A stretch of DNA of 64,000 nucleotides from positions 1-64,000 of the forward strand of contig CAPI01000019.1 in NCBI GenBank assembly GCA_000333815.1, in the 5' to 3' direction. Positions within the stretch are counted from its first letter, which is position 1. Each line of letters opens with the position of its first letter. A program made the translations under genes and the position numbers. The DNA comes from [Collinsella] massiliensis. GTDB lineage: Bacteria > Actinomycetota > Coriobacteriia > Coriobacteriales > Coriobacteriaceae. The notes beneath the pieces were generated by a model that worked only from the letters and a program-made list of their open reading frames with translations, did not search any database and was not told the DNA's origin. Below are positions 721 to 32,059 of the stretch, piece by piece.

Positions 721-768
721 CGCGATACGCCTCCTTGCGAGCGGGGCAACCCGGCGAACGTCGCCGAT

Positions 769-795
769 GTAAAAATACCCCTGGGGTTATTTTAC
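769..795. repeat. 27-bp palindromic element, copy 2
   Basis: Arms GTAAAAATACCCC and GGGGTTATTTTAC around a central T, with two mismatches in the stem. The right arm, read on the minus strand, supplies the last codons GTA AAA TAA (Val-Lys-stop) of the minor pilin gene. The G/C core flanked by A and T runs is what a short bidirectional rho-independent terminator would look like. Confidence 0.85.
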
Positions 796-1602
796 ATGTG
801 TGCGGAGAAGGCGGGCGGCGGCGAGGCAGAGCAGCGCGATCACGGCGATGCCCAACGCGAACACGGCCAGCGTGCCGCCGGTCGCCGGGATACCGAGCGC
901 GGATAGGAAGCGATCGAGCGGGCGCTCCGGTTCCTGCGGCTTGGCAGCGGGCGGCTCGGGCTCCTCGCCGGACGCGCCTCCCGAGGTCTCGAACTTGGGA
1001 GCCACCGTGACGTCGTACACCCAGGCGCCATCCTCCAAAAGGGGTACGCTCACGAGCACGGCGTCGCACGTCAGCGCCTTATTAGCGCTCGCGACATCGG
1101 TGCGCACCGCGACGTAGAGGCCGGGCGCCACGTCGCGGAACACCGCGCGCCCGTCGCCGTCCGTCACGCACGCGCCATCGGTCAGCAGGCCATGGTCTTG
1201 GGCATATGCGCCGAGCTCGCGGGTTGCCGCGCGCCAACCAGATGCGTCGAGCGACACCCAGTCGCGGTCGAGCGGCACGAACCCATCGGTGGTCGCATAG
1301 GCGAAGGAGCCGTCGTCCAACGGCGTGGCCGTCGCGACGAGCGCCAGCCGCCACGTGTCCCCGGATACCGGCTGGGCGGCCTCCCCCTGTCCGCACACGG
1401 CATCGATGGTGATCGACCCGTACGAAAGGGCGGCGGCATCGGCAGGGCGCAGGATCATACCGGCCAGCGCGAGGACGATGGCCGCCGCGACGCGCGCGAA
1501 GGCTCCGAGCGCTCGGGCGCACCGCCCCCGTTCCCGCCGCCCCCGCATGGCAGCGGCCTGCATGCTATGAGAAATGCCTGCCACGCGCGCCATCCTTTCC
1601 AT
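787..1602 (-). CDS. Minor pilin subunit (SpaB-like), sortase-anchored
   Basis: About 271 residues from the ATG at 1602, which has an upstream GAGG at a good distance; an ATG at 1563, directly after the sortase stop, is the alternative. A basic N-terminus and a hydrophobic stretch ending in ADA form a signal peptide. The middle resembles Gram-positive pilin domains (a segment like LVSVPLLEDGAWVYDVTV). Near the end come a Pro/Glu-rich stretch, the sorting motif IPATGG, a hydrophobic segment and a short basic tail. It overlaps the end of the sortase gene and is the last gene of the pilus operon. Its final residues THVK are encoded by the palindromic element. Likely the basal or accessory pilin; the exact role is inferred. 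Confidence 0.8.
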   Translation of the reverse strand: MERMARVAGISHSMQAAAMRGRRERGRCARALGAFARVAAAIVLALAGMILRPADAAALSYGSITIDAVCGQGEAAQPVSGDTWRLALVATATPLDDGSFAYATTDGFVPLDRDWVSLDASGWRAATRELGAYAQDHGLLTDGACVTDGDGRAVFRDVAPGLYVAVRTDVASANKALTCDAVLVSVPLLEDGAWVYDVTVAPKFETSGGASGEEPEPPAAKPQEPERPLDRFLSALGIPATGGTLAVFALGIAVIALLCLAAARLLRTHVK

Positions 1603-2533
1603 AGGTGCGCCTCGAACCCGTATTCCCGGACGCGCCGTCGCCGCGCCGCGTCGCACCGGCCGCCGCGTCCGCCGCGGCCCGCCTGCTCACCCGAAGGCGC
1701 AACACGGCGAGCGCCACCGCGATGACGACGAGCGCGATGATGAGCAAGAGATACGGCAAGGGGATGTTGATGAAGCCGCCGGGCTTGCCCACCTCGTCCT
1801 CCATCTCGGCCGTATACGGGATGGCGTGGGCATGCACGAGCAGCCGATGCGAGTTGATGCCGTAGGGCGTGCAGGTGACGAGCGTCACGCGATCCTCCCC
1901 CGGCGTGATGGCGAGCGATTCCGTCTCGTCGGGCAGCACGGTCTCGATGCCGTCCACCTGGTAGGCATGCACCTCCTCGAGCACGCGGATGTAGAAGACG
2001 TCGCCCTCCCGCATCTGGTCGAGGTCGGTGAAGAGCTTCGCCGAGGGCAGCCCGCGATGCCCGGAGAGCACCGCATGGGTCGAAGCGCCGCCGACGGGCA
2101 GCGACGTCCCCTCGACGTGGCCGACCGCCTGCTGCAGCACCCGCTCGCCGACACCGTGGTAGATGGGCAGCGTCACATCGATGCGCGGGATGGAGATGTA
2201 GCCCATGAGGCCGTTGCCGTCGAGGTTGAGCGCGTCGTCGTAGCTGGCGAGCACCTGCTCCCGCTCCTCCGGGGAGGCGGGCGGCGTTCCGTCCACCTCC
2301 TCGGAGGCGACGCCCTGCTTTTGGGCGAGCGCCGCGTTATAGGTGCGCGCAGCGTCGAGGATCGCCTGGCGTTCCTCGTCGGACATCACCTCGACCGCCT
2401 CGCCGTAACGCTGGACCACGTGCGACGCGTTCCGCTCGATGAGGAAGTTCGAGACGGTCGGGTACAGTAGAAGCGCGATGCCCGCGAGCACGACCAGCAG
2501 TGGGGCGAACCTGCTCAACCACCCCTTCGCCAT
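1565..2533 (-). CDS. Class C sortase (pilus-polymerising)
   Basis: Protein of 322 residues. An N-terminal membrane anchor (about 10-25) is followed by the sortase beta-barrel and a second hydrophobic segment near the C-terminus with a basic tail, the layout of class C (pilin) sortases. Catalytic residues are visible: His159 in LSGHRG, Cys221 in TLVTCTPYG and Arg230 in INSHRLL. It cleaves pilin sorting motifs and joins subunits through a lysine side chain. It starts 3 bases after the major pilin stop and overlaps the minor pilin start, so the three genes form one operon. Confidence 0.95.
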   Translation of the reverse strand: MAKGWLSRFAPLLVVLAGIALLLYPTVSNFLIERNASHVVQRYGEAVEVMSDEERQAILDAARTYNAALAQKQGVASEEVDGTPPASPEEREQVLASYDDALNLDGNGLMGYISIPRIDVTLPIYHGVGERVLQQAVGHVEGTSLPVGGASTHAVLSGHRGLPSAKLFTDLDQMREGDVFYIRVLEEVHAYQVDGIETVLPDETESLAITPGEDRVTLVTCTPYGINSHRLLVHAHAIPYTAEMEDEVGKPGGFINIPLPYLLLIIALVVIAVALAVLRLRVSRRAAADAAAGATRRGDGASGNTGSRRTYGKDGARGRHFS

Positions 2534-2536
2534 GTG

Positions 2537-4102
2537 CTAGCTGTTCCTCCGCGCGCGACGCGTCATCATCCACGCCGTGCCGCCCACGATAGCGACCACG
2601 CCGGCCACGGTGAAGACGACCGTTCCCATGCCGCCGGTTCCGGGCAGCAGGATGCCGGCGTTGTTTACGATCTCGACGGCGTTCTGGCCGTTGTTGTTGA
2701 CCGACCAGCTCTGAAGCGTGCCGTCGGTGTTGTACTCAGCGGCGATGGTCACGGTCGTATCGGCTGCCTTGTTGTAGCCCTCGGGCGCCTTGGTCTCGGT
2801 GAGCGTGTAGGAGCCCTCGCCGAGGTCGACGAAGTGGATGGTGCCGTCGGCGGGCGTAGTGACCTCGGTCACCGCGCTCGCGGTCTCATCACCCACGGCC
2901 GGACGGTAGGTGTTGCTGCTGCCCGTGGCAACGAGGCTGATGACGTTGCCCTTCGCGTCCTTCAACTGGAACGTCGCCCCGGCGAGCGGGTTCGTGCCGT
3001 CGGTCTTTTCCAGATCGAAGTTGAACGTGTACTGATGCGTGAAGACCTCAGCGGACGCATAGAGGTCATTCACACCCGGGCCGTTGGAGTAAATCACCTT
3101 CGCGGAGTTGGTGTTGTCCTTGCCCGTGCCTGCGAGAGACGCGCTCGTGTTAAGCGTCGCGGTGTACGTCACCGTGATGGTCTGGCCTGCCTTGCCCGTG
3201 AAGAGGTCCGTGGCGTCGTATTTCCCCGCGCCCAGCGCGGTGTCTACAGTGCCGAAGTTGATGACGAAGGTGTTGCCCAGGTCCTGCCCATACTGGATGA
3301 TGCACGAGGAGGTCACGTCGGTGCCGCCGATCTCGACCTTCACGCTGTCCTTATCGAGAGTAAGGCCCTCGCTGAGCGTATCCTGGATCGCGAATTGATA
3401 CCCGTTCGTATACCCGCTCACATCGGGAACCATGGAGGTCAGGGTGAACGGCAGGGAGTCGCCGACGCTCGCGCTCGCATGCTTGTCGGATCCATTAACT
3501 ACTTTTTGGATGGTCGGGTAAACGGTCTTGAGGTCAATCGCGACCGGGGTGGCGCTGTTCACGTTCACGAGCAGCGCATCGGTCCCGCGGGACGGGTCGG
3601 TCTGGCCCGTCGAACCCTCTGGGCTGGGGACGACCAGGTAGTAGCCGTATGCGAGGCTTGAAGCCGTAGCGGTCTTCGACGTCCCGTCCGCGTTGGCCGT
3701 GGCGCTAGGTGTAGAGGTCGCCTGCACCGAATGTGCCGCGGCCCACGCTGCCGCCTGCTTCGCGAAGGTTGCCATCCCCTCCGCGTCGTCGTTGCCAAGA
3801 CCCCTGATGTAGGTATATGCCGCGTTGGAGAGATCCGCATCATCGGCAGTGAGCCCGATGCCGCCGCTGCCAGCGTCGGTGGTGAAGAAGTCCTTCCAAG
3901 CGTCGTTCAGCACGTAGCTGTTGACATCGTTTTGCGAGAACATCTGATAGACGCTGATGCTCGCGAAGGGACCGTTACCCGTGACCGCGATGGAGCCGTC
4001 CGAGGCGGCCGCGAACGCCGGCACCGCATACAGCAGCGTTCCCATCGCCAACGCAAAGGTGACCAGGGCCACCGTCAATTTCTTTCCTATCTTGTGCAGC
4101 AT
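2537..4102 (-). CDS. Major pilin, LPXTG-anchored (SpaA-like)
   Basis: 521 residues from the ATG at 4102, chosen for the GAGGAG ribosome site just upstream. The signal peptide covers about the first 31 residues (ends PAFA). The first domain contains a VYPTIQKVV segment, where a pilin-motif lysine is expected. A later CNA_B-type domain holds the E-box-like stretch YTLTETKAPEGYN, associated with isopeptide bonds. The C-terminus has LPGTGG, a hydrophobic helix and a RRARR tail. It would be polymerised by the adjacent class C sortase into a surface fibre for host or mucus adhesion. First gene of a minus-strand operon whose promoter lies in the 4103-4577 spacer. Confidence 0.92.
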   Translation of the reverse strand: MLHKIGKKLTVALVTFALAMGTLLYAVPAFAAASDGSIAVTGNGPFASISVYQMFSQNDVNSYVLNDAWKDFFTTDAGSGGIGLTADDADLSNAAYTYIRGLGNDDAEGMATFAKQAAAWAAAHSVQATSTPSATANADGTSKTATASSLAYGYYLVVPSPEGSTGQTDPSRGTDALLVNVNSATPVAIDLKTVYPTIQKVVNGSDKHASASVGDSLPFTLTSMVPDVSGYTNGYQFAIQDTLSEGLTLDKDSVKVEIGGTDVTSSCIIQYGQDLGNTFVINFGTVDTALGAGKYDATDLFTGKAGQTITVTYTATLNTSASLAGTGKDNTNSAKVIYSNGPGVNDLYASAEVFTHQYTFNFDLEKTDGTNPLAGATFQLKDAKGNVISLVATGSSNTYRPAVGDETASAVTEVTTPADGTIHFVDLGEGSYTLTETKAPEGYNKAADTTVTIAAEYNTDGTLQSWSVNNNGQNAVEIVNNAGILLPGTGGMGTVVFTVAGVVAIVGGTAWMMTRRARRNS

Positions 4103-4577
4103 GTCTGCTCCTCTTCGTCTGCGCGTGTGGGGTTTGCGTTCTCCCTTCTCGCCCGCTCTTGCCATTCCAATATCGAGGCGCGCTCGGCGGCGCGCGTCAT
4201 CGGTTCACGCAAACGCTTGCCCATGCCGGGCGTTACGATGCCCGGCCCGGCAAACGCATGCATACTATGTACTATCCCCGTATCGCACCCCGCGTATATA
4301 GATATATGTGGGGTTTCCGCCCAAAGGCCACGTAGGGCTCTGAACGGTGCCCGCACCAGATGCCGCGCGGGGCGCTCGCTTCAAAAAAGGGGTTGAAAGG
4401 AACACGTCCCCAACCAACCCATTCTTGGAAAAGCCGTGGAGCCGGGCGCGAGTCATATGTTGACGAAATGCCAACAGGGTATAACGGATGCGCACCTAGA
4501 CATGCTTATGCCTCCGCGCTCAAAATCCGCAGCGCGGCCACGCCCCTGACCGGGGCGCGAGATGCGAAAGGAACAAC
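4103..4577. other. 475-bp divergent spacer between pilus operon and M60 protease
   Basis: No gene is visible here. The spacer must hold promoters for both divergent units. An AT-rich patch near 4296-4310 (TATATAGATATAT) lies on the pilus side. On the protease side TTGACG (4460) and TATAAC (4480) are only 14 bp apart, so that promoter call is weak. A partial REP-like repeat sits at about 4375-4422. Confidence 0.6.
4383..4422. repeat. REP-like element, partial copy (inverted arm only)
   Basis: Contains the arm GGGGTTGAAAGGAACACGTC followed by CCCAACCAACCCA, identical to the right arm of the complete elements at 40680, 43139, 44050 and 48445. Bases just before it (GGGGCGCTCGCTTC) look like a decayed middle module. 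The left arm is absent. Confidence 0.8.
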
Positions 4578-7500
4578 ATGCCCCACAACAGAATCGCCCC
4601 GGCGCTCCTGAGCGCCGTCCTCGCCGTGAGCGTGATGCCCACCGGTGCGCTCGCTGCCAGCGAGCATTCCGCTCAGGCGACGGATTCCGCCGTGTCGCTC
4701 ACCACCGGAGAGGGCTCAAGCGAACTCGAAGCCCTCGAGAACGTCGAGGCCGCCCCGGAAAACAAGGGGAACGCCGACGAAGCGGCCAACGAGAACACCG
4801 AAGCCCTGGAAAGCCCCGAGGCAATCGCCGAGGCTCCCGCTACCGGGGAAAGCCCCGAGGAACCCGGCGCGCTCGCCGACACCGACACCACCACCAACAA
4901 CGACACCGCAGACGCAGCCGAGTCCGCGACCGATCCCTCGGAGGACGCCGGCATCGCCATCGTGCGCGACGGTGCGCGCACCACGTACGGCAGTCTCGCC
5001 GACGCCGTGGCCGACGCCCAGAGCGGCGACGTCATCGAGCTCTCCCGCGACCAGGTGCTCGACGAGCGGCTCGTCATCGCGGGCGACCGCGACATCACCC
5101 TGCGCGCCACGGCGCAGGTCACGCTGACCCGCAGCTCCTCCTTCCCCACGGCCGACAACAAGATCGCCGGGATGATCATCGTCAACGATGGCGCCAAGCT
5201 CACGCTCGAGCGCGCGGACGACGCGAGCTCCCTCACGCTGGACGGCGAGGAGAAGGATTCCAACGAGGCCATCATCACGCTGCGCAACGCGTCCAAGCTC
5301 ACCATGAACGAGGGCGCCTCGATCGTGCGCGCCCATTGCTCATGGAAGCCATGGGGCGCCGTGTACGTGCACTCCGGCACCTTCGTGCTCGACGGCGGCG
5401 AGATCCGCGACAGCTTCGCCATGCGCAACACCGCGGTTGCGGTCGAGGCTGCGGGCTCGTTCGAGATGCGCGGCGGCACCATCGCGAACAACCGTGCGAG
5501 CTACACCCAGACCATGGTCTGGACCAAGGGCTCGATCACCATGACGGGCGGCACCATCGCGAGCAACCGCTCGAACGTGTCGAGCGACGGCGTGGTGCAG
5601 GTGCTCTCGGGCGGCTCGCTCGCGTTCGAGGGCGGCACCATCGGCGACAACAACCCCAACAACACCTTCGGTGTGCGCGTGGACGGCGGCGGTTCGCTCG
5701 CGCTGGGCGCGGACGCCCACCTTGCGGGCGCCGACCGCATCGACCTCGCCCAGGGCGCAGCCCTGCGCTTCACGGGCACGCCGGCTGCCCACAGCATCGA
5801 CGAACCCATCGAAATCGTGCTCTCGGGCGAGTGGGCGGATGGCACGCTTCTCGCCGCGACGGACGCTCCCGAGACGGCGCGCGACGTCCTGGGCATCCTC
5901 TCCGTGAAGCACGGCGGGACGCGCGAGCAGCTCGCGACGGTGGGCATCGACCCCTCCAACGAGTGCAACATCGCCCTCGCCTCGGCCGATGTCGTGGCCG
6001 CGTTCGACGCGCTGGACAACCCCTTCGTCGACGACCTCGGCCTCGAGCTGCGCGACGAGCTCACCGCAGAGGGCGCCTTCGACCGCCTGCGCGACACGGT
6101 GGACGCGCACTTCGGCGATGCCGACACGCCCGAACGTCGCGTGCGCGTGCAGCAGATCGAGCGCCTCGAGCAGTACGCCGGCTACCTGAGCGCGCACCAC
6201 GAGGAGCTTGCGGCCTCGGTGCTCACCCTCTCCGAGCTGGGGAACCCCGGCGCCGAGGCGCAGCGCACCCAGCAGGGCTACCAGTTCGACAACCTCGACG
6301 CCACGGGGCTCTACCTCAAGCCGGGCAAGGTGCACGAGATCGTCGTCTACGTCGCGGCTAACGACCCCTCCCTGCTCTCCGTGGCGTGGCGCCAGGCGGG
6401 CGTCACCGACACCAACCACTACACCTCGCTCAACCTCGAGCAGAGGTCCAAGCTTACGCGCGGGGAGAACCGCATCACCATCGACCTCACCGGCAAGACG
6501 CACGGCTCGATGCTCTTTCTGCGCAACGACTCGACGAGCAATCCCGCGCGCGTGCGCATCGAGGCGTATGACGCTCCCTACGTGACCGCTGACGCCGAGG
6601 GCGGCGCGGACGCGGATGGCTCCACCGCCCGCGACGGCTCCGCGGCCGCCAACCCCGCGCTCGGCACGAGCCTGGGCGAGCACCCCCTCTACGTGCACGA
6701 TCCCGAGCAGCCCGAGCGCTTCTGGACCTTCGTCCAGGACGTCAAGGCGCACGCCGCGCGCGTCGAGGCGGGCGAGCAGGTCGCCGATATGGCGCTCGTG
6801 CAGATGGGCGACGACGGGCACGCGCAGTTCTCCATCAGCGCAACCGCGCTCGCGAAGGCATATGCCGGCATCACGAGCAAGGACGCCGCCGTGGCCTATA
6901 TCGAGCGCTCGAACGAGGCCATCCAGGACCGCCTCGAGTTCTTCTGGGCGTTCGACGGCTTCGACGCGGCCGAGAGCGGCCCCAACGCCATCTCGCCCGC
7001 GCGCGTGCACACCGCGTTCACGCGCACCGTCTCCAACCCCTCGACCATGTACGCCTTCGTGCGCTACTTCCACATGCCGGAGGGCTACGCCGCGTCGTTT
7101 TTGTCGGGCGAGAACATGTACACCTGGGGCATGTCGCACGAGTACGGGCACATGCTCGACAACAATGTCATCGCCGTTGCCGAGGAGACGAACAACCTGT
7201 ACTCCCTGGCGGGATCGCGCCAGGGCGGTATCGAGGCGTCGGCCGCGGCGGGCATCGCGTTCGACCCGGCGGCGTACTATCACGGGAACGCCGTGAAGGC
7301 CAACGAGCGCCGCGACGAGGAGCTGGCGAAGATGGCCGCCGACCCCACCTTCGTGCCGGATTGGATGAACAGCGGGGATTGGGGCACCTATATCTGGACC
7401 CACGTGACCACCTGGTGGAACGGCCTGCACTTCTTCGATGATTGGGACTACAGCGGCTATGACTACACCGCGAGCCCCTATACGCAAGAGATCGCGACAG

Positions 7501-8639
7501 ACGTGGAACGCTATGGCGCATACGGCGCGACGTTGCGCATCCTGCGCGGCGACGCCGAGGCGGTGAAGACCATACAGGAGCTGGCGTCGGGCGCCTCCTC
7601 ATCGACGAGCGTGAAGTACAACCGCATCGCCGTCGCGTTCACCATGGGCACGGGCTACAACTTCGCCGAGTACCTCTACGAGCTGGGTGAGCGCGACCTC
7701 ACGCCCGAGGTGCTGGAGTGGTGCGCCCAGTACCCCTCGGTGCCGCGCGCGGTGCGCTACTTCTCGCTCGACACCGACGCGGCGATCATCAACGGGGCGA
7801 AGACGTATGCCCAGCTCAAGGGCAGCGCCGACGCGGTGTCGCCCACCGTATCCGTGGAGCTCGGCGATGCGGGGACGGTGCAGGTCGAGGCGACCATGGC
7901 GACGCCCGAGCTCGAGCAGGCTACGACCGCCTACGAGCTGTACCGCGACGGCACGCTCATCGGCTTCTCGCGCGATGGCTCGTTCGAGGTCGCCGTTGAC
8001 GCGGGGGCGAACGCCGCGAGCGCTGACGGCACGGCAGACGGCGCCTTCGACAAGGCTGCCTATTCCGTGGTCGCCTACGACGTGCGCGTGAACCCCAGCC
8101 GTGCCGCCAACGTGGACGGTCCCATCCTCGACGCCGAGCTGCCCGATACGGACGAGCCCGGTGAGGACGGCGGGCTCCCCGGCGGGGACGGCGACGTCGA
8201 TGGCGACACCGGTAACGGCGACGATGCCGGCAACGGCGGCGACGGCACGGGCGACGGCGATGCTGATGGCGACACCGGCAATGGCGACAACGACGCCGGC
8301 GGGGATGACACCACAGGCGGCGGCTCGACCGACGGTGACAATGGCACCGACAGCGGCGCCGGCGATACGACCGGCGGCGGCTCGAACCAGCCCGGTGGGG
8401 ACTCCCCGACGGATGGGGACACCTCCGGTAACGGCAACCCGAACGGCTCCGCCAGCGACGCGGATGCGGGTGGGGACGCCACCGGGCAGACGCAGGACGC
8501 CGACGCGCTGGCAGCCGACGCCTCCGGCCAGCTTACGCAGACAGGCGACGCATCGGCTCTGCCCATCGGCATAGCCGCGGCGGGTTCCGCCCTCGCCTTC
8601 ATCGGCGCCGCCATCGCCCGGCGTTTCCGGAAATCGTAG
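4578..8639 (+). CDS. Large sortase-anchored M60-type (mucinase-like) metalloprotease
   Basis: 1353 residues. A signal peptide (about 1-27, ending ALAA) precedes a low-complexity Glu/Ala/Thr stretch. A region of repeated GGTIA/GG-S-L units (about 230-400) is typical of a parallel beta-helix. The segment around 570-670 (TGLYLKPGKVHEIVVYV, GSMLFLRND) resembles the domain preceding M60 catalytic domains. The zinc motif HEYGH is at residues 854-858, followed by EETNNLYSL, matching the M60/enhancin pattern HExxH...E with TNN. A Gly/Asp/Asn-rich linker leads to LTQTGD, a hydrophobic helix and RRFRKS, a variant LPXTG sorting signal. M60 enzymes cleave O-glycosylated mucins, so mucin or host glycoprotein degradation is likely. 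The ATG follows GAAAGGAAC. Divergent from the pilus operon. Confidence 0.88.
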   Translation: MPHNRIAPALLSAVLAVSVMPTGALAASEHSAQATDSAVSLTTGEGSSELEALENVEAAPENKGNADEAANENTEALESPEAIAEAPATGESPEEPGALADTDTTTNNDTADAAESATDPSEDAGIAIVRDGARTTYGSLADAVADAQSGDVIELSRDQVLDERLVIAGDRDITLRATAQVTLTRSSSFPTADNKIAGMIIVNDGAKLTLERADDASSLTLDGEEKDSNEAIITLRNASKLTMNEGASIVRAHCSWKPWGAVYVHSGTFVLDGGEIRDSFAMRNTAVAVEAAGSFEMRGGTIANNRASYTQTMVWTKGSITMTGGTIASNRSNVSSDGVVQVLSGGSLAFEGGTIGDNNPNNTFGVRVDGGGSLALGADAHLAGADRIDLAQGAALRFTGTPAAHSIDEPIEIVLSGEWADGTLLAATDAPETARDVLGILSVKHGGTREQLATVGIDPSNECNIALASADVVAAFDALDNPFVDDLGLELRDELTAEGAFDRLRDTVDAHFGDADTPERRVRVQQIERLEQYAGYLSAHHEELAASVLTLSELGNPGAEAQRTQQGYQFDNLDATGLYLKPGKVHEIVVYVAANDPSLLSVAWRQAGVTDTNHYTSLNLEQRSKLTRGENRITIDLTGKTHGSMLFLRNDSTSNPARVRIEAYDAPYVTADAEGGADADGSTARDGSAAANPALGTSLGEHPLYVHDPEQPERFWTFVQDVKAHAARVEAGEQVADMALVQMGDDGHAQFSISATALAKAYAGITSKDAAVAYIERSNEAIQDRLEFFWAFDGFDAAESGPNAISPARVHTAFTRTVSNPSTMYAFVRYFHMPEGYAASFLSGENMYTWGMSHEYGHMLDNNVIAVAEETNNLYSLAGSRQGGIEASAAAGIAFDPAAYYHGNAVKANERRDEELAKMAADPTFVPDWMNSGDWGTYIWTHVTTWWNGLHFFDDWDYSGYDYTASPYTQEIATDVERYGAYGATLRILRGDAEAVKTIQELASGASSSTSVKYNRIAVAFTMGTGYNFAEYLYELGERDLTPEVLEWCAQYPSVPRAVRYFSLDTDAAIINGAKTYAQLKGSADAVSPTVSVELGDAGTVQVEATMATPELEQATTAYELYRDGTLIGFSRDGSFEVAVDAGANAASADGTADGAFDKAAYSVVAYDVRVNPSRAANVDGPILDAELPDTDEPGEDGGLPGGDGDVDGDTGNGDDAGNGGDGTGDGDADGDTGNGDNDAGGDDTTGGGSTDGDNGTDSGAGDTTGGGSNQPGGDSPTDGDTSGNGNPNGSASDADAGGDATGQTQDADALAADASGQLTQTGDASALPIGIAAAGSALAFIGAAIARRFRKS

Positions 8640-8691
8640 GCATGCCATACCGTAGCTGACCCCGACGACCGGGGCGGCGCGCGCAACGGCC

Positions 8692-8728
8692 AAGGCCCGT
8701 CACCCCCGCATCTGGGGCGACGGGCCTT
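8692..8728. terminator. Bidirectional hairpin terminator
   Basis: Perfect 10-bp-plus stem, AAGGCCCGTC paired with GACGGGCCTT, with an inner ACCCC/GGGGC step, lying between the convergent protease and esterase genes. It has no strong T run, but the position fits a shared terminator. Confidence 0.75.
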
Positions 8729-8788
8729 GCGCGCTTCCAGGGATGACGACGCGCTGTGCTCGAAACCGCGCACCGGCTCGATGCGCCA

Positions 8789-9478
8789 TCAACCCGTGAT
8801 GGCGAGCTGCGCGTCGAGCGCCTTGAGCCCTGCGGCGAGGCGCTCGGTATGGTGCTGCATATGGTTGCCCGGCCCCACGACGAGGTCCACCGCGCATCCA
8901 CTGCCGCGAAGCATGTCCGCACATGCCTCCAGATCGTCCTGAACGGATCGCATGATGGGAGGCCCGGCGCGGCGCTCCTTCCTCCCGATCGAGAGGTACG
9001 CGTAGCGCCCCGCGCCGTTTGGAGCGTACTGTCGCAGGTAATCGACCCAGCCCTCGTACCAAACCGAACCCGAGAGGCAGGCGCACGCCGAGAACGTCGA
9101 GGGCTCACGGGTGAACGCATACAGCGCGAAGAGCCCGCCGAGCGAGTACCCGCAGATCGCGCGGCGCGCCGGGGAGAGCCCGTGTGCCGCCTCCACCGCA
9201 GGGATAACCGTACCCGTCAGCTCCGCGAGCGTCTCTGTCGCCTTGCCGCCGAAATCCTCCGCACCCGGGCGCACGCCCGCCGCCGGCCAGGGCGTCAGGC
9301 TATCGCTCCAGTCGCGCACGGGCACGCGCACCACCATGGCGCGCACGCCATCGACCGCAGCCGCGACATCGAAGGGATGCTCGGGCATATCGATCACGTA
9401 GATGACGGGCGCGCCGTCCCCGCCCGCACCGCGCAGAAGCGCGCACCCGTCCGCGTCAATGAAGCCCATCTCGGTCAT
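8789..9478 (-). CDS. Alpha/beta-hydrolase esterase (Fes/IroE-like)
   Basis: 229 residues from the ATG at 9478, which follows GAAGGGAAGCG. The nucleophile elbow GYSLGG is visible (Ser in G-Y-S-L-G), a catalytic His is likely in VVGPGNHMQHH near the end, and the fold order matches the putative esterase (PF00756) family. Such enzymes hydrolyse ester bonds, for example in siderophores or acylated sugars. No siderophore gene lies nearby, so the substrate is unknown. No signal peptide is seen; it is probably cytosolic. It is convergent with the M60 gene across a hairpin, and a DUF5714 gene lies about 100 bp upstream on the same strand. Confidence 0.8.
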   Translation of the reverse strand: MTEMGFIDADGCALLRGAGGDGAPVIYVIDMPEHPFDVAAAVDGVRAMVVRVPVRDWSDSLTPWPAAGVRPGAEDFGGKATETLAELTGTVIPAVEAAHGLSPARRAICGYSLGGLFALYAFTREPSTFSACACLSGSVWYEGWVDYLRQYAPNGAGRYAYLSIGRKERRAGPPIMRSVQDDLEACADMLRGSGCAVDLVVGPGNHMQHHTERLAAGLKALDAQLAITG

Positions 9479-9579
9479 CGCTTCCCTTCGCTCGCCGCCT
9501 CCCAGTGTAGCAGCCCGGAGTCGCGTTCCCGAGCGCGCCCGCAGCACCGGCGGCACACACCGTGCACCGGCCGGCGAAA

Positions 9580-10140
9580 TCACCCGTGGTACGGACAGGC
9601 CTCGCCGATGCACGCAGCATTCGCCTCGGATACCGCGCAGACGGGCTCTTCCGCAGGCAGCGCCAGCTCCACCCCGAGGGCGCGGGAAAACCACGGCGTC
9701 GCCTCGCGCACGGCGATGCGGGCATCGCGCTTGCAGCAGCGCGGGGCGCCCGCCTGCGCGATCTTTTGCAGCAGATCCGCCACCATGAGCTGCGTCTCGC
9801 TCCAGCCATCGGCCTTGAGCGGCGCGTTGCCCTGGGCGATCGCGAGCGCCATGCCGCACGACGCCGCGGCGCCGCACACGCCCCAGCGCGCGCAAGCGCC
9901 CCCGGGCACGCAGGCAGAGCGGGATGCCAGTTCATCGAGCTGCGCATCCAGGTCCCCCGCATATCCCGCGTTCGACGCGCAGGCGAGCAGCGCCGCGCCC
10001 ACCAGGAAGTGATGGGCCGGCCCAAATGCCGGGCATTCCGGCGCGGACATCAGCAGCTCCAGCATATCGGCAGGACACACCACGTCGCCCTGCCGGCACA
10101 ACTCATACGCCCAGGCGTACTCCGTCGTCTTCTCACCCAT
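9580..10140 (-). CDS. DUF5714 family cysteine-rich protein
   Basis: 186 residues with many cysteines, including CARWGVCGAAASCG, APRCCKRDAR and EANAACIGEACPYH, a pattern seen in DUF5714 proteins of anaerobes. The clustered cysteines suggest bound metal or an Fe-S cluster, but this is inference; no catalytic function is established. There is no signal peptide or membrane segment. The gene lies alone between the esterase and the transporter terminator hairpins. Its start at 10140 follows a GAAAGGGGAGCG stretch, a strong ribosome site. Confidence 0.75.
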   Translation of the reverse strand: MGEKTTEYAWAYELCRQGDVVCPADMLELLMSAPECPAFGPAHHFLVGAALLACASNAGYAGDLDAQLDELASRSACVPGGACARWGVCGAAASCGMALAIAQGNAPLKADGWSETQLMVADLLQKIAQAGAPRCCKRDARIAVREATPWFSRALGVELALPAEEPVCAVSEANAACIGEACPYHG

Positions 10141-10291
10141 CGCGCTCCCCTTTCGATGCCTCTATATCGATGGCTACCAATATACCTGCTGCGTGCACTC
10201 CGTCGCATGAAGACGCGCGACGAAGCGAGGCGCGCCGTCCGCACCCGCAGGGCGAGCCACACGGCACCACCCAACCCGTACGGACAGCATG

Positions 10292-10336
10292 ATGCCCGCC
10301 ACCTGCACATCCACACCGTGGACAGGTGGCGGGCAT
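10292..10336. terminator. Strong stem-loop downstream of MFS gene
   Basis: A perfect 14-bp stem, ATGCCCGCCACCTG paired with CAGGTGGCGGGCAT, with a 17-base loop and a CTTTC tract on the plus-strand side. It lies between the minus-strand MFS stop and the DUF5714 start and probably ends bsh-MFS transcription or insulates the two genes. Confidence 0.75.
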
Positions 10337-10381
10337 CTTTCATGCGCTCGGATCCGCTACTGCCGAGCGCACGGCATGGGA

Positions 10382-10413
10382 GCGGGGCCGCTTTCCCAAA
10401 CAAGCGGCCCCGC
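10382..10413. terminator. Hairpin directly after MFS stop
   Basis: A 12-bp perfect stem, GCGGGGCCGCTT with AAGCGGCCCCGC, and an 8-base loop starting a few bases past the MFS stop codon. Together with the next hairpin it forms a tandem terminator. Confidence 0.75.
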
Positions 10414-10418
10414 GGAAC

Positions 10419-12239
10419 TTAGTGGCCACCCTTGGGAGGCGCGGCCTTCGGGCCAGCGGTCGCCTGAGCAGCAGGCGCCTGAGCCGTGACCTTCTGAGCC
10501 GGAGCGGCCTGGGCAGCTGCCTTCTGAGGCGCGGCCTTACCCGGCGCGCCCTTGCCGGAGGCGGCACCGGACGTCGCGCTCGGGCCGCTCTCCTTGGAAA
10601 GCGTCTTGATCCACGGAGTGGTGAGCAGGCCCAGCAGCACGATGACAGCACCCACGCCATAGGCGATGCGCGTCGAGTCGAAGCGCGCCTTGGCCTCAAG
10701 CTCAACGAGCTTGGTGCGCTCGGCGTCGGACATCTGGATATGGGAGATGTCCTCCTCGAACTCCTTGTTGCTGCCCAGGTTGATGGTGAGCCCGGAAACC
10801 TGCTCGGCAACCGACGACGGAATCTCCGAGTTGGAGGCCATCTCATTGCTCAAGGTGGAGCTGATACCGAAGATCAGGACGGCGCCCAGGAGCGCCACGC
10901 CCAGAGCCTGGCCCACGTTGCGCATCGTGCTCTGGATGCCGCCGGACTGCGACGCATCGCGATCGTTCACCGCGAGGGCGACGACGTTGCTCGCATGGGC
11001 CGACACGGTGCCCGCGCCGACGCCAGCCATGAACGCGCCCAGGTAGACACCGATGCGGTTCGCGCCATCGATGGTCACGGAGGAGGCCATGATGCCCAGC
11101 GCGATCGCCATGGCCACATAGCCGATCTGGATCACGTGGCGCGGGTTGGCCTTGGGGAAGAGCTTCGGGATGCCGAGGGCGAGCCCGAAGGTGGGCAGGC
11201 CGGTCACGATGGAGATGGTGCCGACGTCGATCGGCGTCCAGTCAGCGACGAGCTGCAGGTACGGGGACATGAGGATCGACTGCGCGCCCATGAAGAAGAA
11301 CATCAGCGCGTTGGCGACCAGACCGGCGAGCACCTGCTTCGTGGTAAGGAACGAGCGCGGAAGCACCACGAGGCCGTAGCGCTTCTCCTCGCGCGCCTCC
11401 ACCTTCACGAGCACGATGAGGATGATGATGCCCAAGATGATGAGCGGGATCGCCGGCGAGATGCCGAAGAGGGCGAACGGGGCGGTGTGCATCGGCTTGA
11501 TGAGACCCCAGCTCGAGATGCTCGAGAGGCCGATGAGCACGCAGAAGAACCCGAGCGCGGCGAGCGCCACGCCGATGGCGTCGAAGTGGGACTTCTCAGA
11601 CGGCTGGTCGAACTTGGGCAAGCCCATCGAGAGCACCACGACGCCGACGAAGTAGAGGGCGAGCACGAGGAAGGTTACGCGCATGCCCGACAGCTGCATG
11701 ACGACGCCCAGGATGAGCGGCAGCACGGCCGCGAGGCCGGAGGCGGCGCCGATGCACCCGAAAGCGACGGTACGGTTAGCGCCGTGATAGATGAACGGAA
11801 TGATGCCGAGGAGGGATGGGACGAGGAAGCTCGCACCCAATCCAACAAGCACACGGCCGACCCAGATAAAGAAGAACATGTTGGGGGAAAGCGCAAGGGC
11901 GACCTCACCGATGGCGGCGAGCAAGGCGCCGATGCGGAAGGTCTTGCGCCAGCCGATCATGGTGCCGGCAAGGCCGCCGGCGATCATGAACGAGCCGCCA
12001 ACCAACGGATAGATCATGTTGGCGAGCTGAATATCCGAGGTCGTCGCCCCGAGGTCCTTCGTCAGCGCGTCCGCGGCGAGCGAAAGCGCGCCGTTGTCGC
12101 CGGTGGTTCCCATCTGGGCAAGAACCAGGATGACGATGGGCAGCACGAGGAATTTCTCTTTACCCGCACCCGGTGCGGGCTTAGCGGCGGTAGCGGCCGC
12201 CGCGTGCGCAGATGATGAGGCAGGGGTCGTGCGATTCAT
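10419..12239 (-). CDS. MFS transporter, probable bile acid or drug/H+ permease (bsh operon)
   Basis: 606 residues from the ATG at 12239, preceded by GAAGGGAGTGCTC. It has about 12-14 hydrophobic helices with an MFS loop motif (GWRKTFRIGALL) and a later WVGRVLVGLGASFLVPSLLGI segment like motif C of DHA2-type proton antiporters. A large loop near the end precedes a last helix. The final 50 residues are an unusual Ala/Pro/Lys/Gln-rich tail with repeated AAP and KAA units, ending KGGH. It lies 67 bp downstream of the bile salt hydrolase with no terminator between, so it is probably co-transcribed and may move conjugated or released bile acids or their amino acids. The substrate is inferred from context only. 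Confidence 0.85.
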   Translation of the reverse strand: MNRTTPASSSAHAAAATAAKPAPGAGKEKFLVLPIVILVLAQMGTTGDNGALSLAADALTKDLGATTSDIQLANMIYPLVGGSFMIAGGLAGTMIGWRKTFRIGALLAAIGEVALALSPNMFFFIWVGRVLVGLGASFLVPSLLGIIPFIYHGANRTVAFGCIGAASGLAAVLPLILGVVMQLSGMRVTFLVLALYFVGVVVLSMGLPKFDQPSEKSHFDAIGVALAALGFFCVLIGLSSISSWGLIKPMHTAPFALFGISPAIPLIILGIIILIVLVKVEAREEKRYGLVVLPRSFLTTKQVLAGLVANALMFFFMGAQSILMSPYLQLVADWTPIDVGTISIVTGLPTFGLALGIPKLFPKANPRHVIQIGYVAMAIALGIMASSVTIDGANRIGVYLGAFMAGVGAGTVSAHASNVVALAVNDRDASQSGGIQSTMRNVGQALGVALLGAVLIFGISSTLSNEMASNSEIPSSVAEQVSGLTINLGSNKEFEEDISHIQMSDAERTKLVELEAKARFDSTRIAYGVGAVIVLLGLLTTPWIKTLSKESGPSATSGAASGKGAPGKAAPQKAAAQAAPAQKVTAQAPAAQATAGPKAAPPKGGH

Positions 12240-12306
12240 GAGCACTCCCTTCACCCGGGCATACAACCCGGGCCTTGACTAATAGGTTGCGTGATCGTGC
12301 GGTCGG

Positions 12307-13269
12307 TTAGGCAGCGGTGGCGATGAACGGCTCCGTGCCACTGAGGTCGCACGCCGAGAGCGGATACGCGTGGATGGTGGGATCTTCGTAGGTCGCGTGG
12401 TAGTAGGTCATCGTGCCGGCAGAGAAACCGCTCGTATACAGGGTCTTCTCGTAGTCGCCGTTGGCCATCTTCGCCACGCCCTCGGGCACCGCGGAAGCGC
12501 CGAGCGTGCGGAAGAGACGGGTCACGTTGGCCTGCTCGCCCTCCTGGACGGGATAGTGCGCGTTCACATACGCCGCGCGCACGAAACGCGCCGGTCCGCC
12601 GTAATCGCCGGGCATGCCCTGGACGCCGCCGCCCGAGCCGAAGGGTTTGAGCTCGGCGCGATCCCACGCGGTGGGCGCGGGCAGGTCCTCGTCCATCATG
12701 AGGTAGTTGCGCAGGTTCTGACGATGCCAGCCGAAATCGGGCTCGTTGGTGAGCGCGTCGACATCGTTCTCCCAAACATGCAGGCCGTCGGCCATGCACT
12801 CGACCACCACGCTGCCCGTGGCGTCGCCCACGAGCCAGTGCAGGTTGGCCACCGGCAACTGCTCGTTCACGGGCTTGGCCACCACGGTGGTGTTCTTCAG
12901 CGCGGCACGCACCTCATCGAGCGAGGCGAAGTTGCGCGCGATCCAATAGGGGAACTCGTAGGCGGCGACGTTTGAGGTGCCGTCCACGGGACCCGGCGCA
13001 TAGTGCGCGCTCTGCGGGAAGTTGAGGCCCGCAACGGCCACGCCGGCGTCGTTGCCGCAGTCGAAATAGAGCGGGATACCCATGACGACGATACCCATGC
13101 CCATTACGGTATGACCTTGCTCGGGATCGTCCGGACGCTCGAAAGCCGTCGGGACCTTGGCCCCCGAGGGCGTCACGACCACCTTCTCTCCGTAACCCTG
13201 CGTCCAATCAAGGTTACGCCCAAAAAACATTGCGCCGGTCTTGTCGGTAAAGCGGATACCCGTACACAT
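12307..13269 (-). CDS. bsh: Conjugated bile acid hydrolase (choloylglycine hydrolase)
   Basis: 320 residues beginning MCTGIRF, so Cys2 becomes the N-terminal nucleophile after Met removal, as in all Ntn-type bile salt hydrolases. Other family positions are present: the GRNLDW segment (Arg18, Asp21), the Asn-bearing NEPDFGWHRQNLRNY segment, and a conserved Arg-containing region after SGGGVQGMPGDYGG. It releases glycine or taurine from conjugated bile acids, a trait of intestinal bacteria including Collinsella. Its start follows GAAGGGAGCGGCCCT. It is the first gene of an operon with the MFS gene. A TACAAT -10-like box and two direct repeats lie upstream. Confidence 0.95.
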   Translation of the reverse strand: MCTGIRFTDKTGAMFFGRNLDWTQGYGEKVVVTPSGAKVPTAFERPDDPEQGHTVMGMGIVVMGIPLYFDCGNDAGVAVAGLNFPQSAHYAPGPVDGTSNVAAYEFPYWIARNFASLDEVRAALKNTTVVAKPVNEQLPVANLHWLVGDATGSVVVECMADGLHVWENDVDALTNEPDFGWHRQNLRNYLMMDEDLPAPTAWDRAELKPFGSGGGVQGMPGDYGGPARFVRAAYVNAHYPVQEGEQANVTRLFRTLGASAVPEGVAKMANGDYEKTLYTSGFSAGTMTYYHATYEDPTIHAYPLSACDLSGTEPFIATAA

Positions 13270-13329
13270 AGGGCCGCTCCCTTCTCGTCGGCGGCAGAGC
13301 CGCTGGCGCTCGTTGGGAAGTTGATATTA

Positions 13330-13386
13330 TTGTATCCACGATGCAAGCACTAAATCGGTAAATGGTTAATTAAGATTGGTAAACGG
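13330..13386 (-). promoter_or_regulatory. Putative bsh promoter with two direct repeats
   Basis: On the minus strand a TACAAT -10-like box lies about 60 bp before the bsh start, without a good -35. Upstream are two 12-mers, CCGTTTACCAAT and CCATTTACCGAT (13354-13365 and 13375-13386 on the plus strand), differing at two positions and exactly 21 bp apart. That spacing puts them on one face of the helix, as for an activator dimer. No cognate regulator is identified. Confidence 0.5.
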
Positions 13387-13397
13387 CAGGGGGACGA

Positions 13398-13424
13398 CGT
13401 AAAATTACCCCAGGGGTTATTTTA
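13398..13424. repeat. 27-bp palindromic element, copy 3
   Basis: Arms GTAAAATTACCCC and GGGGTTATTTTAC around a central A, with one stem mismatch. On the minus strand it encodes the Val-Lys-stop end of the MmcQ-like gene, and it separates that gene from the bsh promoter. Confidence 0.88.
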
Positions 13425-13809
13425 CATTCGCTGCCGCCAGCTCCCGCTGTACGCGCTTGGGAAGCTTGGCGAAAACGAGCTCGTAGCTCATATCGCATAG
13501 GTCGAGCACGAGCGACTCGGGCAGGTCGGCATCAAGGTCGATGGAGATCCATGTGCGACCGTCGGAGTAGTACGCGGGAAGGATCGCATCGGGCCACTCG
13601 GCACGCAGCTCGCGGATGCGGTCGGGGTCGCACTTGAGAGACAGCAGGTGCATGCCTGCATAGGGCGCCTTCGCGTCCGCGCCCGCCGTGAACTCGCATG
13701 CGAACTGGCGACCGCCTACCCAATAGACCATCCAGCCCCATCGTTCATGGAGCGCCTTGCTCGCCCCGGGATGCGCGAGCAACCGGTCATCGATGCGGCC
13801 AAGATCCAT
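13417..13809 (-). CDS. MmcQ/YjbR family protein
   Basis: 130 residues from the ATG at 13809, chosen because GAAGGGAGCGG precedes it. It has the YjbR/CyaY-like double-wing fold signature: a central DGRTWISIDLDADLP stretch and a C-terminal helix pair (DLCDMSYELVFAKLPKRVQREL). Family members bind DNA or are of unknown role; the length is typical. Its last residues, NVK and stop, come from the palindromic element. It is transcribed alone on the minus strand, with another copy of the element just upstream of its start, so the gene is bracketed by two palindromes. Confidence 0.8.
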   Translation of the reverse strand: MDLGRIDDRLLAHPGASKALHERWGWMVYWVGGRQFACEFTAGADAKAPYAGMHLLSLKCDPDRIRELRAEWPDAILPAYYSDGRTWISIDLDADLPESLVLDLCDMSYELVFAKLPKRVQRELAAANVK

Positions 13810-13874
13810 AGCCGCTCCCTTCGCCAGCGAAGATACTGCTGATGCCATTGTTCCCCGGATGGGGATTCGTCGAT

Positions 13875-13901
13875 GTAAAAATACCCCTGGGGTTATTTTA
13901 C
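13875..13901. repeat. 27-bp palindromic element, copy 4
   Basis: Same variant as copy 2 (left arm GTAAAAATACCCC, right arm GGGGTTATTTTAC, central T). It encodes the YVK-stop end of the membrane protein gene on the minus strand. Confidence 0.88.
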
Positions 13902-14309
13902 ATAGACGGCCTTGCCGAAGTTATGGCCGAACAGGAGGCCTGCCAGCAAAAGCGCGGCGCCCAAGCCGGTGTAGAACACCGCGATGAACCGCTCAGGCGC
14001 AAGGCCGCTCGCCCTGAGACCGATGCCGCCCGCCATCATCACCGCCATGATGATGAACGCCTTGGTGTCGAAGAATTTGAGAAAGAACTGACGCTCGTCC
14101 TGGTAGCCGCCGATGCGCGCGGTGTGCTTGCGCACGAGCCGCCCGAAGATGAACACTTGGAAGACGCCGAAGACCACGAGGCTGAGCGCGATGTTCAGAA
14201 GGCTGAGATACGCCGGGTACGCCATGAGGCCGATGCGCAGGATGTTGATGCCCGCCGCGCTCCACACCAGGCACGCGATGAGCAGCAGCGTATCTCGTTT
14301 GACTTTCAT
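13893..14309 (-). CDS. Four-helix membrane protein of unknown function
   Basis: 138 residues from the ATG at 14309; an ATG two codons earlier is too close to the GGAGGGA ribosome site. Four hydrophobic segments are visible, at about 6-24, 32-52, 86-106 and 112-130, with a cytoplasmic loop RLVRKHTARIGGYQDERQFFLKFFDTKAF between the second and third. I do not recognise the family. The gene is divergent from the PadR operon and shares its control region. The C-terminal AVYVK and stop lie within the palindromic element. Confidence 0.72.
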   Translation of the reverse strand: MKVKRDTLLLIACLVWSAAGINILRIGLMAYPAYLSLLNIALSLVVFGVFQVFIFGRLVRKHTARIGGYQDERQFFLKFFDTKAFIIMAVMMAGGIGLRASGLAPERFIAVFYTGLGAALLLAGLLFGHNFGKAVYVK

Positions 14310-14464
14310 AGCCATTCCCTCCGGGTTCAGCAGCAGGCTTCAAACCGAGCCCATACATGGTAGCGGCAAGGTGCCGCGCACACAGAACATGCATCCCGCC
14401 AAGGATCTGCGAACGAGGCCGACACCGCCATTAGAACCCGCTCCAAGAGAATCCTTGCAGCGTC

Positions 14465-14503
14465 TTATACTATGTGTTATATAGTATATGTCACACAGTA
14501 TAA
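14465..14503. promoter_or_regulatory. Dyad operator for PadR regulator
   Basis: The outer arms TTATACTATGTG (14465-14476) and CACACAGTATAA (14492-14503) are inverted repeats with one mismatch, ending about 20 bp before the padR-like start. The site sits over an AT-rich promoter (TTATATAGTATA). PadR proteins bind such ATGTG-containing dyads, so autoregulation is likely. Confidence 0.7.
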
Positions 14504-14522
14504 GGCGAAGGGAGGTGTGCGG

Positions 14523-14834
14523 ATGGAGGCTCAGATGAAACGCGGGTTCCTGGAGGCCTGCGTGCTCGCCGCCGTCTCCGGTGAGGAGTCCTACGGCTAT
14601 CGCATCGTCAAGGACGTGCCGGCATGCATGGGACTCACCGAGTCCACGCTCTACCCGCTGCTGAAACGCCTCGAGAAGGCGGGTTGCATCGCCGTGCGCT
14701 CCGCCGAGCACAACGGCCGGCTGCGCAAGTACTATCGCATCACGGACACAGGACGAGAGCGCATCAACGAGTTCCTGGCCGAATGGCCGTCCGTACAAGA
14801 GATCTACCGCTACGTGGAGGGAGCACGATCATGA
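14523..14834 (+). CDS. PadR family transcriptional regulator
   Basis: 103 residues from the ATG at 14523, after GGGAGGTGTGCGG. It is a short PadR winged-helix protein: ACVLAAVSGEESYGYRIVKDV, then TESTLYPLLKRLEKAGCI as recognition helix and wing, and LRKYYRITDTGRERINEF. It lacks the longer C-terminal dimer domain. Its stop overlaps the start of the next gene (ATGA), the standard layout of PadR-DUF1700 operons in Firmicutes and Actinobacteria, which control small membrane proteins in envelope stress. A dyad operator lies directly upstream. Confidence 0.92.
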   Translation: MEAQMKRGFLEACVLAAVSGEESYGYRIVKDVPACMGLTESTLYPLLKRLEKAGCIAVRSAEHNGRLRKYYRITDTGRERINEFLAEWPSVQEIYRYVEGARS

Positions 14835-15553
14835 CGAGGGAAGAGTTCCTGGAGCGTCTGGGTGACCTCCTGGCCTGCCTGCCCGCAGAGCAGATCGAGG
14901 AATCGAAGGCGTTCTATGCCGAGGCTATCGCCGACCGTATGGAGGACGGCATGTCCGAGGAGGAGGCCGTCGCCGCAATCGGATCGCCGGGCGCCGTGGC
15001 CGAAGCGATCCTGAATGACCTGCCCGCCGTGCCGCGCGTGATCGCCAAGACCCGTCGCCGCAGCAACGTGCTGCTCTGGATTCTCGCGATCGTGGGCTCG
15101 CCCCTATGGTTCGTGCTCGCGCTTGCCTTCGCCGCCGTGGCCTTCACGGTCTACCTCTGCATCTGGATCCTCGCACTTTGCGTGTGGATCATCGCAGCGG
15201 CGCTCGGGGCCTCCGGCATCGTAGCGCTCGCGCTCGCCACATGCGGCATCGCGATTGGGAACGTCCCGTACGTGCTCGCCATGGCGGGTGCCGGGCTCGG
15301 CCTCATGGGCGGGACGCTCTTCGTGGGCGCGGGCGCCTGGGCGGTGACCAAGCAGATCGCACGTCTTTCCGCCCTCTGGGTGAACAAGGCGCTCTCCCCC
15401 TTCAGCAAACATCGGGGGGACGGCGAAACCGGACGACCGAATGGCAGAGCAGGCAGGCTTCCCGTCAACCCGTCCGTAGATGGTGGCGGAGATGCGGAAC
15501 GCACTGCGGGCGGCGAGCACTTCTCCGCGGCGGCGACGGCCGCACTCAACTAG
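14831..15553 (+). CDS. DUF1700 family membrane protein
   Basis: 240 residues. The N-terminal soluble part (MTREEFLERLGDLL...EEEAVAAIGSP) is the DUF1700 helical domain. It is followed by three or four long hydrophobic segments between about 78 and 178 and a low-complexity Gly/Asp/Arg tail. Family members sit next to PadR regulators and DUF4097 proteins and are thought to form a membrane stress module; the mechanism is unknown. It overlaps padR by 4 bp, so the two are translationally coupled, and the third gene of the operon follows 12 bp downstream. Confidence 0.85.
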   Translation: MTREEFLERLGDLLACLPAEQIEESKAFYAEAIADRMEDGMSEEEAVAAIGSPGAVAEAILNDLPAVPRVIAKTRRRSNVLLWILAIVGSPLWFVLALAFAAVAFTVYLCIWILALCVWIIAAALGASGIVALALATCGIAIGNVPYVLAMAGAGLGLMGGTLFVGAGAWAVTKQIARLSALWVNKALSPFSKHRGDGETGRPNGRAGRLPVNPSVDGGGDAERTAGGEHFSAAATAALN

Positions 15554-15565
15554 GAGGCACGCATC

Positions 15566-15835
15566 ATGACCAACGTGAAGAAGACCTATTTCTCCGTTGC
15601 GGGTGGGCTCCTTGCCCTCGGCATCATCCTTGCCGTCCTGGGGTTCGCCGCCTCGGGCTTCAATCCCGCCGTGTTCCAGACGCAAATCGACCTGCGCAGC
15701 AACAGCATCAACTTCGGCGGCGTCGAGGTGGATGATCCGTCGGGCATCCCGTTTGTCAACCTACTCGAGAACCTCGGTGAAATCGACCTCGCAGCCCCCG
15801 AGGCCCCGAGCGCGCCGCGCGCATATGTAAAATAA
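15566..15835 (+). CDS. Short membrane-anchored protein, possible truncated DUF4097 protein
   Basis: 89 residues. One N-terminal transmembrane segment (about 8-30) is followed by an extracytoplasmic stretch (FNPAVFQTQIDLRSNSINFGG). In related operons this position usually holds a DUF4097 beta-helix protein of 200 residues or more, so this gene looks cut short. The last residues AYVK and stop are the left arm of the palindromic element (15827-15853). A strong GGAGG site precedes the ATG. It is either a genuinely short protein or the stump left when the element or a rearrangement removed the 3' part; the sequence alone does not decide. Confidence 0.65.
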   Translation: MTNVKKTYFSVAGGLLALGIILAVLGFAASGFNPAVFQTQIDLRSNSINFGGVEVDDPSGIPFVNLLENLGEIDLAAPEAPSAPRAYVK

Positions 15836-15853
15836 CCCCTGGGGTTATTTTAC
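15827..15853. repeat. 27-bp palindromic element, copy 5 (perfect)
   Basis: Arms GTAAAATAACCCC and GGGGTTATTTTAC are perfect reverse complements around a central T. The left arm supplies Val-Lys-stop to the plus-strand gene, and 12 bp further the next plus-strand gene begins. Confidence 0.92.
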
Positions 15854-15865
15854 ATAGGAGAAGCC

Positions 15866-29765: not shown

Positions 29766-30081
29766 GGGGGCTCCTTCGCTGGTCGCAGGCAGCATCCGCG
29801 CTCGGCGCGGCATCGCGCTGCCATCTCATCAAGACATTGACCTAGCGAATCTTCACCGAGCTTCCCTTCCGTCGGTTCCGGTGGCGCCGCCACGCGCGCT
29901 GCGAGGACCCTCTGCCCTCGCCCGGTCGACACGCCGAGTATACGCCGCGGTGCATGCAGGGTCAATTGCCCGCCCCTCGCTCGCCGCGCGGCCGGACAAC
30001 GCGCCCGCACGGTACAATAGCCAGCATCGGCCTTTCGCGCGCCGGGCTCGGCGGCGCGAACATCGAGAAACGGAGGCAGCC
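29766..30081. other. 316-bp divergent spacer between ABC-F and GH2 genes
   Basis: No gene is visible. A TACAAT box near 30012 is a candidate -10 for the glycosidase. On the ABC-F side a GC-rich self-complementary stretch (GCGCTCGGCGCG, near 29805) might form a leader hairpin, but I see no clear attenuator. Confidence 0.45.
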
Positions 30082-32058: not shown

Positions 32059-32059
32059 C
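32033..32059. repeat. 27-bp palindromic element, copy 6 (diverged)
   Basis: Left arm GTAAAATTACCCC, right arm GGGGTTTTTTAAC around a central A; the right arm has drifted. It covers the ends of both convergent genes: the GH2 gene reads through it in the open frame, and the GTPase gene ends at its right edge (TGT TAA). Confidence 0.8.

Follow-up and report, generated by a model that had tools for sequence, protein, structure and literature searches.

Why should several unrelated genes in one stretch of a bacterial chromosome end in the same two residues, Val-Lys, with a single kind of palindrome supplying these codons and the stop? The question is raised by a window of 64,000 nucleotides of the gut bacterium [Collinsella] massiliensis (contig CAPI01000019.1, positions 1 to 64,000), in which the first-pass annotation had read the palindrome as a dispersed stop-plus-terminator module. 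Our analysis gives another answer: the palindrome is very probably a REP-like repeat, a non-autonomous element often paired in REPIN fashion, that was spread by a RAYT, a transposase-like HUH tyrosine (Y1) protein, encoded on contig C29 of the genome. The supposed stop module is then explained as a known kind of repeat. The copies in the window and the genes that they touch are as follows.

1-14, no strand: half dyad, cut by the start of the contig, which itself begins here
767-797, minus strand: dyad copy, A-centred on the minus strand; gives ...HVK-stop to the gene at 787-1593
787-1593, minus strand: gene for a surface protein with an IPATGG-type sorting signal; element-encoded VK end
13397-13427, plus strand: dyad copy, A-centred on the plus strand; gives ...NVK-stop to the YjbR/MmcQ gene at 13417-13848
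13417-13848, minus strand: YjbR (MmcQ-like) protein gene; element-encoded VK end
13873-13903, minus strand: dyad copy; gives ...YVK-stop to the membrane-protein gene at 13893-14315
13893-14315, minus strand: membrane protein gene; element-encoded VK end
15566-15835, plus strand: small protein gene of the PadR operon; element-encoded VK end
15825-15855, minus strand: dyad copy, the sole perfect palindrome; gives ...AYVK-stop to the gene at 15566-15835
29764-32058, plus strand: glycoside hydrolase family 2 (GH2) gene; CKITPGVF-stop through the third frame of the element
32031-32061, plus strand: dyad copy holding the ends of two convergent genes (GH2, 29764-32058; EF-G-like, 32055-34001)
32055-34001, minus strand: EF-G-like translational GTPase gene; EC-stop inside the element

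What is the repeated unit? The 27-mer described in the first-pass annotation is real, but the full conserved dyad has 31 bp, ATGTAAAANNACCCC(A/T)GGGGTNNTTTTACAT, with a strongly conserved core and near-perfect dyad symmetry. The 27-mer is matched at 769, 13399, 13875, 15827 and 32033 with 2, 1, 2, 0 and 3 mismatches respectively, and 0 occurrences are expected in shuffled sequence; all positions listed earlier do carry the palindrome, except that the second copy starts at 13399 and not at 13398. The foot of the dyad is GTAA, symmetric on both sides (G 0.97, T 0.92, A 0.93, A 0.94), and a GTAG/GTGG (or CGTC) tetranucleotide tag was not found at the hairpin foot of the 31-bp dyad. The full copies in the window are all singlets, and Rfam gave no match in the first 34 kb of the window.

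The four genes said to end in VK do so (...LLRTHVK, ...ELAAANVK, ...KAVYVK and ...PRAYVK). The first of them had been called a pilin; it has an IPATGG-type sorting signal and gave no Pfam match. Its sorting signal (IPATGG, membrane span and charged tail) terminates in the dyad-encoded residues. The GH2 gene had been thought to read through the element, which is not the case, as it ends with ...CKITPGVF-stop at 32056-32058, inside the right arm, and the EF-G-like gene facing it stops in the same element with ...AEC-stop at 32055-32057. The product of the latter gene has the domains GTP_EFTU, EFG_III, EFG_IV and EFG_C.

Do copies elsewhere in the genome also lie at gene ends? The statistics cover 105 copies in 1.12 Mb of the genome (G000, 2.33 Mb, Coriobacteriaceae), about half of it, in stretches that were mostly chosen for holding copies, with the random background drawn from the same stretches. 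Genes were called with a home-made caller trained on ORFs conserved in relatives, which gave sensible genes in the window; two other callers were discarded, one of which favoured antisense ORFs while the other trained itself onto the antisense strand. Only 3 of the 105 copies are intragenic, against 75% at random; 56 lie between codirectional genes, 29 between convergent and 12 between divergent ones, and 5 at stretch edges. The first-pass annotation would have given up its module if copies had fallen at random relative to gene ends, and they do not: 59 of the 105 are found no more than 40 bp from a gene 3' end, compared with 25% of random extragenic sites. The dyad holds stop codons in two frames of both strands, by which a copy can become a gene end. 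Stop codons supplied or overlapped by the element number 37, of which 17 are in the Met-stop frame and 9 in the Val-Lys-stop frame, while 7 overlap its first base and 4 are others; the third frame is used by just 2 of the 29 ends lying wholly inside the element. The idea that VK is the signature of the element is thus not supported, since it marks a minority of the ends (9 of 37) and Met-stop ends turn up about twice as often.

Are the protein ends really changed by the element? Orthologues without it also lack the VK end, which had been named as the point on which the idea could fail: the YjbR/MmcQ orthologues end in ...REVSDA and ...RELAGV, and that of the PadR-operon protein in ...APVAP. 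The claim that the element edits C-termini where it is present therefore holds, and the cases provide worked examples of a repeat rewriting protein C-termini. The dyad at 13397-13427 is absent from the orthologous gene ends in G001 and G004 and that at 15825-15855 from the one in G001; for the dyad at 32031-32061, the corresponding place in G004 also holds a copy, alike at 30 of 31 bases. Over all orthologous gene ends compared, the element is missing in every comparison with G001, G003 and named Collinsella/Olsenella genomes and at 34 of 37 ends in G002, where the other three carry G002's own dyad class, and it is common to 12 of 20 sites in G004. These empty orthologous sites are indirect evidence that points to movement; exact empty sites with nucleotide boundaries were not found, the nearest relatives being about 74% identical in DNA.

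The distribution across genomes is equally uneven. G000 has 74 copies at up to 3 mismatches and 100 by the core pattern, so the five copies in the window are a sample of about 100 genome-wide, in line with the earlier view of a dispersed and possibly mobile element, mobility being probable. Within the genus, 135 copies were counted in G004, 3 in G002 and none in G001 or G003. Among 67 genomes of the family, the exact core is abundant only in G000, G004 and G051 (65 copies); three or four occur each in G030, G052, G046 and G002, and one in G049.

Could the palindrome nevertheless be a dedicated symmetric module, kept for a clean end of translation and transcription on both sides? The clustering at gene 3' ends with 37 stop codons supplied or overlapped would fit it, and so would the good RNA fold of the perfect copy (-15.6 kcal/mol); one tested copy type folds no better than shuffled sequence. 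The sister species G001 does without the element and G002 nearly so, and their genes end normally; 12 copies lie between divergent genes, a terminator scan missed the copies at 13397, 13873 and 15825, and two doublets of dyads hold an apparent ordinary terminator between them. Nor does such a module account for the tie to a RAYT gene described below. We hold it to be very unlikely, and the evidence favours a REP-like repeat that belongs to a RAYT gene and may have a secondary role in termination. The earlier impression that no such family had been described is not supported either, since REPs that give stop codons to flanking ORFs have been published: REP termini often provide stop codons, and REPs lie near ORF 3' ends, some of them within ORFs (PMC3733652). 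Giving stop codons to neighbour genes is thus a known side effect of REPs and not a new device.

Which gene, then, may have spread the repeat? In most genomes of the genus, a search with Y1_Tnp (PF01797) brought up several genes; G001 had none. One of those in G000, on contig C29, has palindrome copies on both sides; its orthologue in G004 (C53) has nine around it, and that in G051 again has copies on both sides, so that in these three genomes the copies flank a specific RAYT, as is expected of REPs and REPINs. Many copies are found only in genomes with the cognate RAYT. Diverged cognate dyads flank the RAYT in G002, G030, G052 and G046. In G002 this is a different dyad, ...AGGACAGAGGG..., with 18 dispersed copies in that genome and 3 in G003, absent from G000, G001 and G004; in G030 the flanking form is ...ACCCTAGAGG.... 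The form flanking the RAYT in G052 and G046 is ACCCTAGGGA, from which dispersed copies of ACCCTAGGGA were predicted there, and the search found tens of them in both genomes, many being doublets 53 bp apart. The RAYTs associated with the ACCCY-AGGG core form one clade (100/98). Their locus is syntenic: the RAYT adjoins the same 340-aa gene in G000, G004, G002, G030, G051 and G052, and in those six genomes, where the sequence extends far enough, the same NifU-like gene is also beside it. The RAYT is therefore a low-copy gene inherited vertically at a stable locus, in keeping with earlier work that describes RAYTs as single-copy genes with vertical inheritance (PMC8049555). The result is a set of species in which RAYT and repeat changed together at one conserved locus, so that recognition by the little-studied RAYT group 1 becomes directly testable.

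GGGTCWGACCC dyads bracket an unrelated RAYT in G038 and likewise its relative in G048; there are 38 such dyads in G038, 6 in G048 and 0 in the other 65 genomes. RAYT-specific dyads may be general in this RAYT family. Other RAYT genes, L196 (G000, contig C99), L198 (G002), L288 (G040) and L297 (G032), have their own, quite different palindromes nearby, e.g. TGATAAAAAGGTGTCTGACACCATTTTATCA.

To which class does the RAYT belong? The protein L206 carries the motifs HVH and YVHINP, that is, the HUH motif and the class 2 signature Y---NP, and matches Y1_Tnp (E 7e-12) and PDB 4er8, TnpA-REP (E 1.3e-4). Its best family is the NCBIfam REP-transposase model NF047646, with 68.7 bits, below the cut-off of 80; the RAYTs as a whole score 54.7-71 bits against this model and remain under that cut-off. 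Among the C-terminal helix-turn-helix models HTH_23, HTH_28 and Bac_DnaA_C, none was matched in L206, and HTH_23 was above its cut-off in the paralogue L196. Flanking inverted repeats, a trait of TIRYTs and subclass 2.1, are present beside these RAYTs. Judged by resemblance and not by tree placement, the C29 RAYT appears to be like the TIRYTs (RAYT group 1, TnpAY1 subclass 2.1) because of its length, its C-terminal extension and the flanking inverted repeats. TIRYTs have been equated with RAYT group 1, and most of them are assigned to its counterpart subclass 2.1, near whose genes that study found no REP-like sequences (PMC6006769). The main text of neither this paper nor PMC3733652 mentions Actinobacteria, and no relevant paper on REP repeats in Collinsella or Coriobacteria was found among open-licence literature.

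The arrangement of the copies gives a further indication. Many copies are singlets. In the 1.12 Mb there are also 22 inverted neighbour pairs, all in A-then-T order and mostly spaced 67-76 bp, with matching arms as in REPINs: where the partners of a doublet are 55-90 bp apart, they agree at 30.1 of 31 positions, versus 26.9 when partners are permuted (0 of 2000 permutations as high). The spacers are unrelated to one another. Doublets in G004 are similar, 11 of 12 being in A-then-T order. Another dyad, the variant ATGTAAANNNACCCCAGCGACTTTTTTACAT, is found in G000 and G004 nearly always in inverted doublets, mostly 71-73 bp apart, and no RAYT of its own was found beside the copies in these two genomes. 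Its sites are:

G000: L097:2560-2663, L099:13589-13692, L057:6854-6955 and L059:17349-17484
G004: L232:17383 and L235:5738

Two more readings can be weighed at this point, and we consider both extremely improbable. One is an operator or a binding site for a structural protein, such as a regulator or a chromosome-organising protein that needs many dyads. Near-perfect symmetry and a strongly conserved core are what it would lead one to expect, but the copies sit at 3' ends and not at promoters, form doublets with identical arms in a fixed order, occur only in genomes with the cognate RAYT and have diverged together with it. The other derives the dyads from an ordinary DDE-transposase insertion sequence, as its ends or miniature derivatives (MITEs); the inverted doublets do resemble inverted-repeat ends, and the copies are dispersed and lineage-specific. 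Yet the copies have no common flanks beyond the dyad, save in the variant subfamily and a few weak matches, no larger element with such ends was seen in the stretches analysed, and it is a RAYT gene that has the dyads on both sides. A search for a larger element common to the surroundings of the copies found none. Reading the palindrome as a DNA-uptake sequence was dropped, as few intact half-sites lie away from dyads.

A REP-like repeat, for its part, agrees with the established features of such families: the unit is a palindrome within the usual 20-40 bp (31 bp), in many copies that are mostly extragenic. How might it have spread? The dyad would be recognised by the RAYT of C29, cut and copied in single-stranded form, and then integrated at new sites. 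Copies that landed within genes would be lost by selection, leaving survivors that are intergenic and mostly at 3' ends. A copy landing at or just before a stop codon would then create a new gene end, Met-stop or Val-Lys-stop. The repeat family itself, its tie to the RAYT, the doublets, the orthologous sites that lack it and the altered C-termini are shown directly; that this RAYT carries out the catalysis and the mobilisation, and that selection lies behind the 3'-end bias, we infer.

How does the family compare with known systems? It shares with the TIRYT/TIRtron repeats (Di Nocera et al. 2013, PMC3733652) a long RAYT-like protein that carries a C-terminal extension and stands between inverted repeats, which can be self-complementary. 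Some families of these repeats are scattered and, like REPs, come in dimers or clusters; the TIRYT motif GGGGWSAS fits GGGGTCAG of the related RAYT in G048. Unlike TIRYT repeats, the dyads here run to 65-135 copies in a genome, pair up regularly as REPIN-like doublets and co-diverge with the RAYT. In the GI REPINs of P. fluorescens the arms are conserved, the spacers vary and the spacing is 71 bp (Bertels and Rainey 2011, PMC3116915), and the resemblance of our doublets to Pseudomonas REPINs extends to all of these and to the tie with a RAYT locus, whereas the core and symmetry differ, many copies are singlets and there is no GTAG-type tag. Like the GTAG REPs and BIMEs of Escherichia coli with TnpA-REP, the copies are short intergenic palindromes tied to an HUH tyrosine protein, and REP termini there, too, often give stop codons (PMC3733652); the difference lies in a near-perfect 31-bp dyad without a GT[AG]G guide at one foot. 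Rickettsia palindromic elements also alter proteins where they land (PMC3733652), but they are described inside genes, while the copies here lie at gene ends and mostly bring stops. The kind of repeat is thus known. The novelty is that in Coriobacteriaceae a REPIN-like family has been amplified and co-diverges with its RAYT, although this RAYT type is reported to be without REPs. A wider generalization is offered only tentatively, as we find it somewhat doubtful: group 1/subclass 2.1 RAYTs might drive high-copy REPIN-like families, reading a long symmetric dyad, perhaps with the C-terminal region, instead of a GTAG-guided hairpin, with co-divergence at a fixed locus across genera.

Two details of individual copies may be added. 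A doublet at L104:12315-12412 in G000 and L236:5904-6003 in G004 lies between genes that are 95-99% identical; its arms are alike at 30 of 31 positions and its spacer is unrelated, so something keeps the arms alike, be it gene conversion, replacement or selection. Half dyads abut or enclose full dyads at L098:2131-2277, L090:197-249, L104:12293-12345 and L100:3376-3428, as if a copy had landed in a copy, or half a copy had been left after an event.
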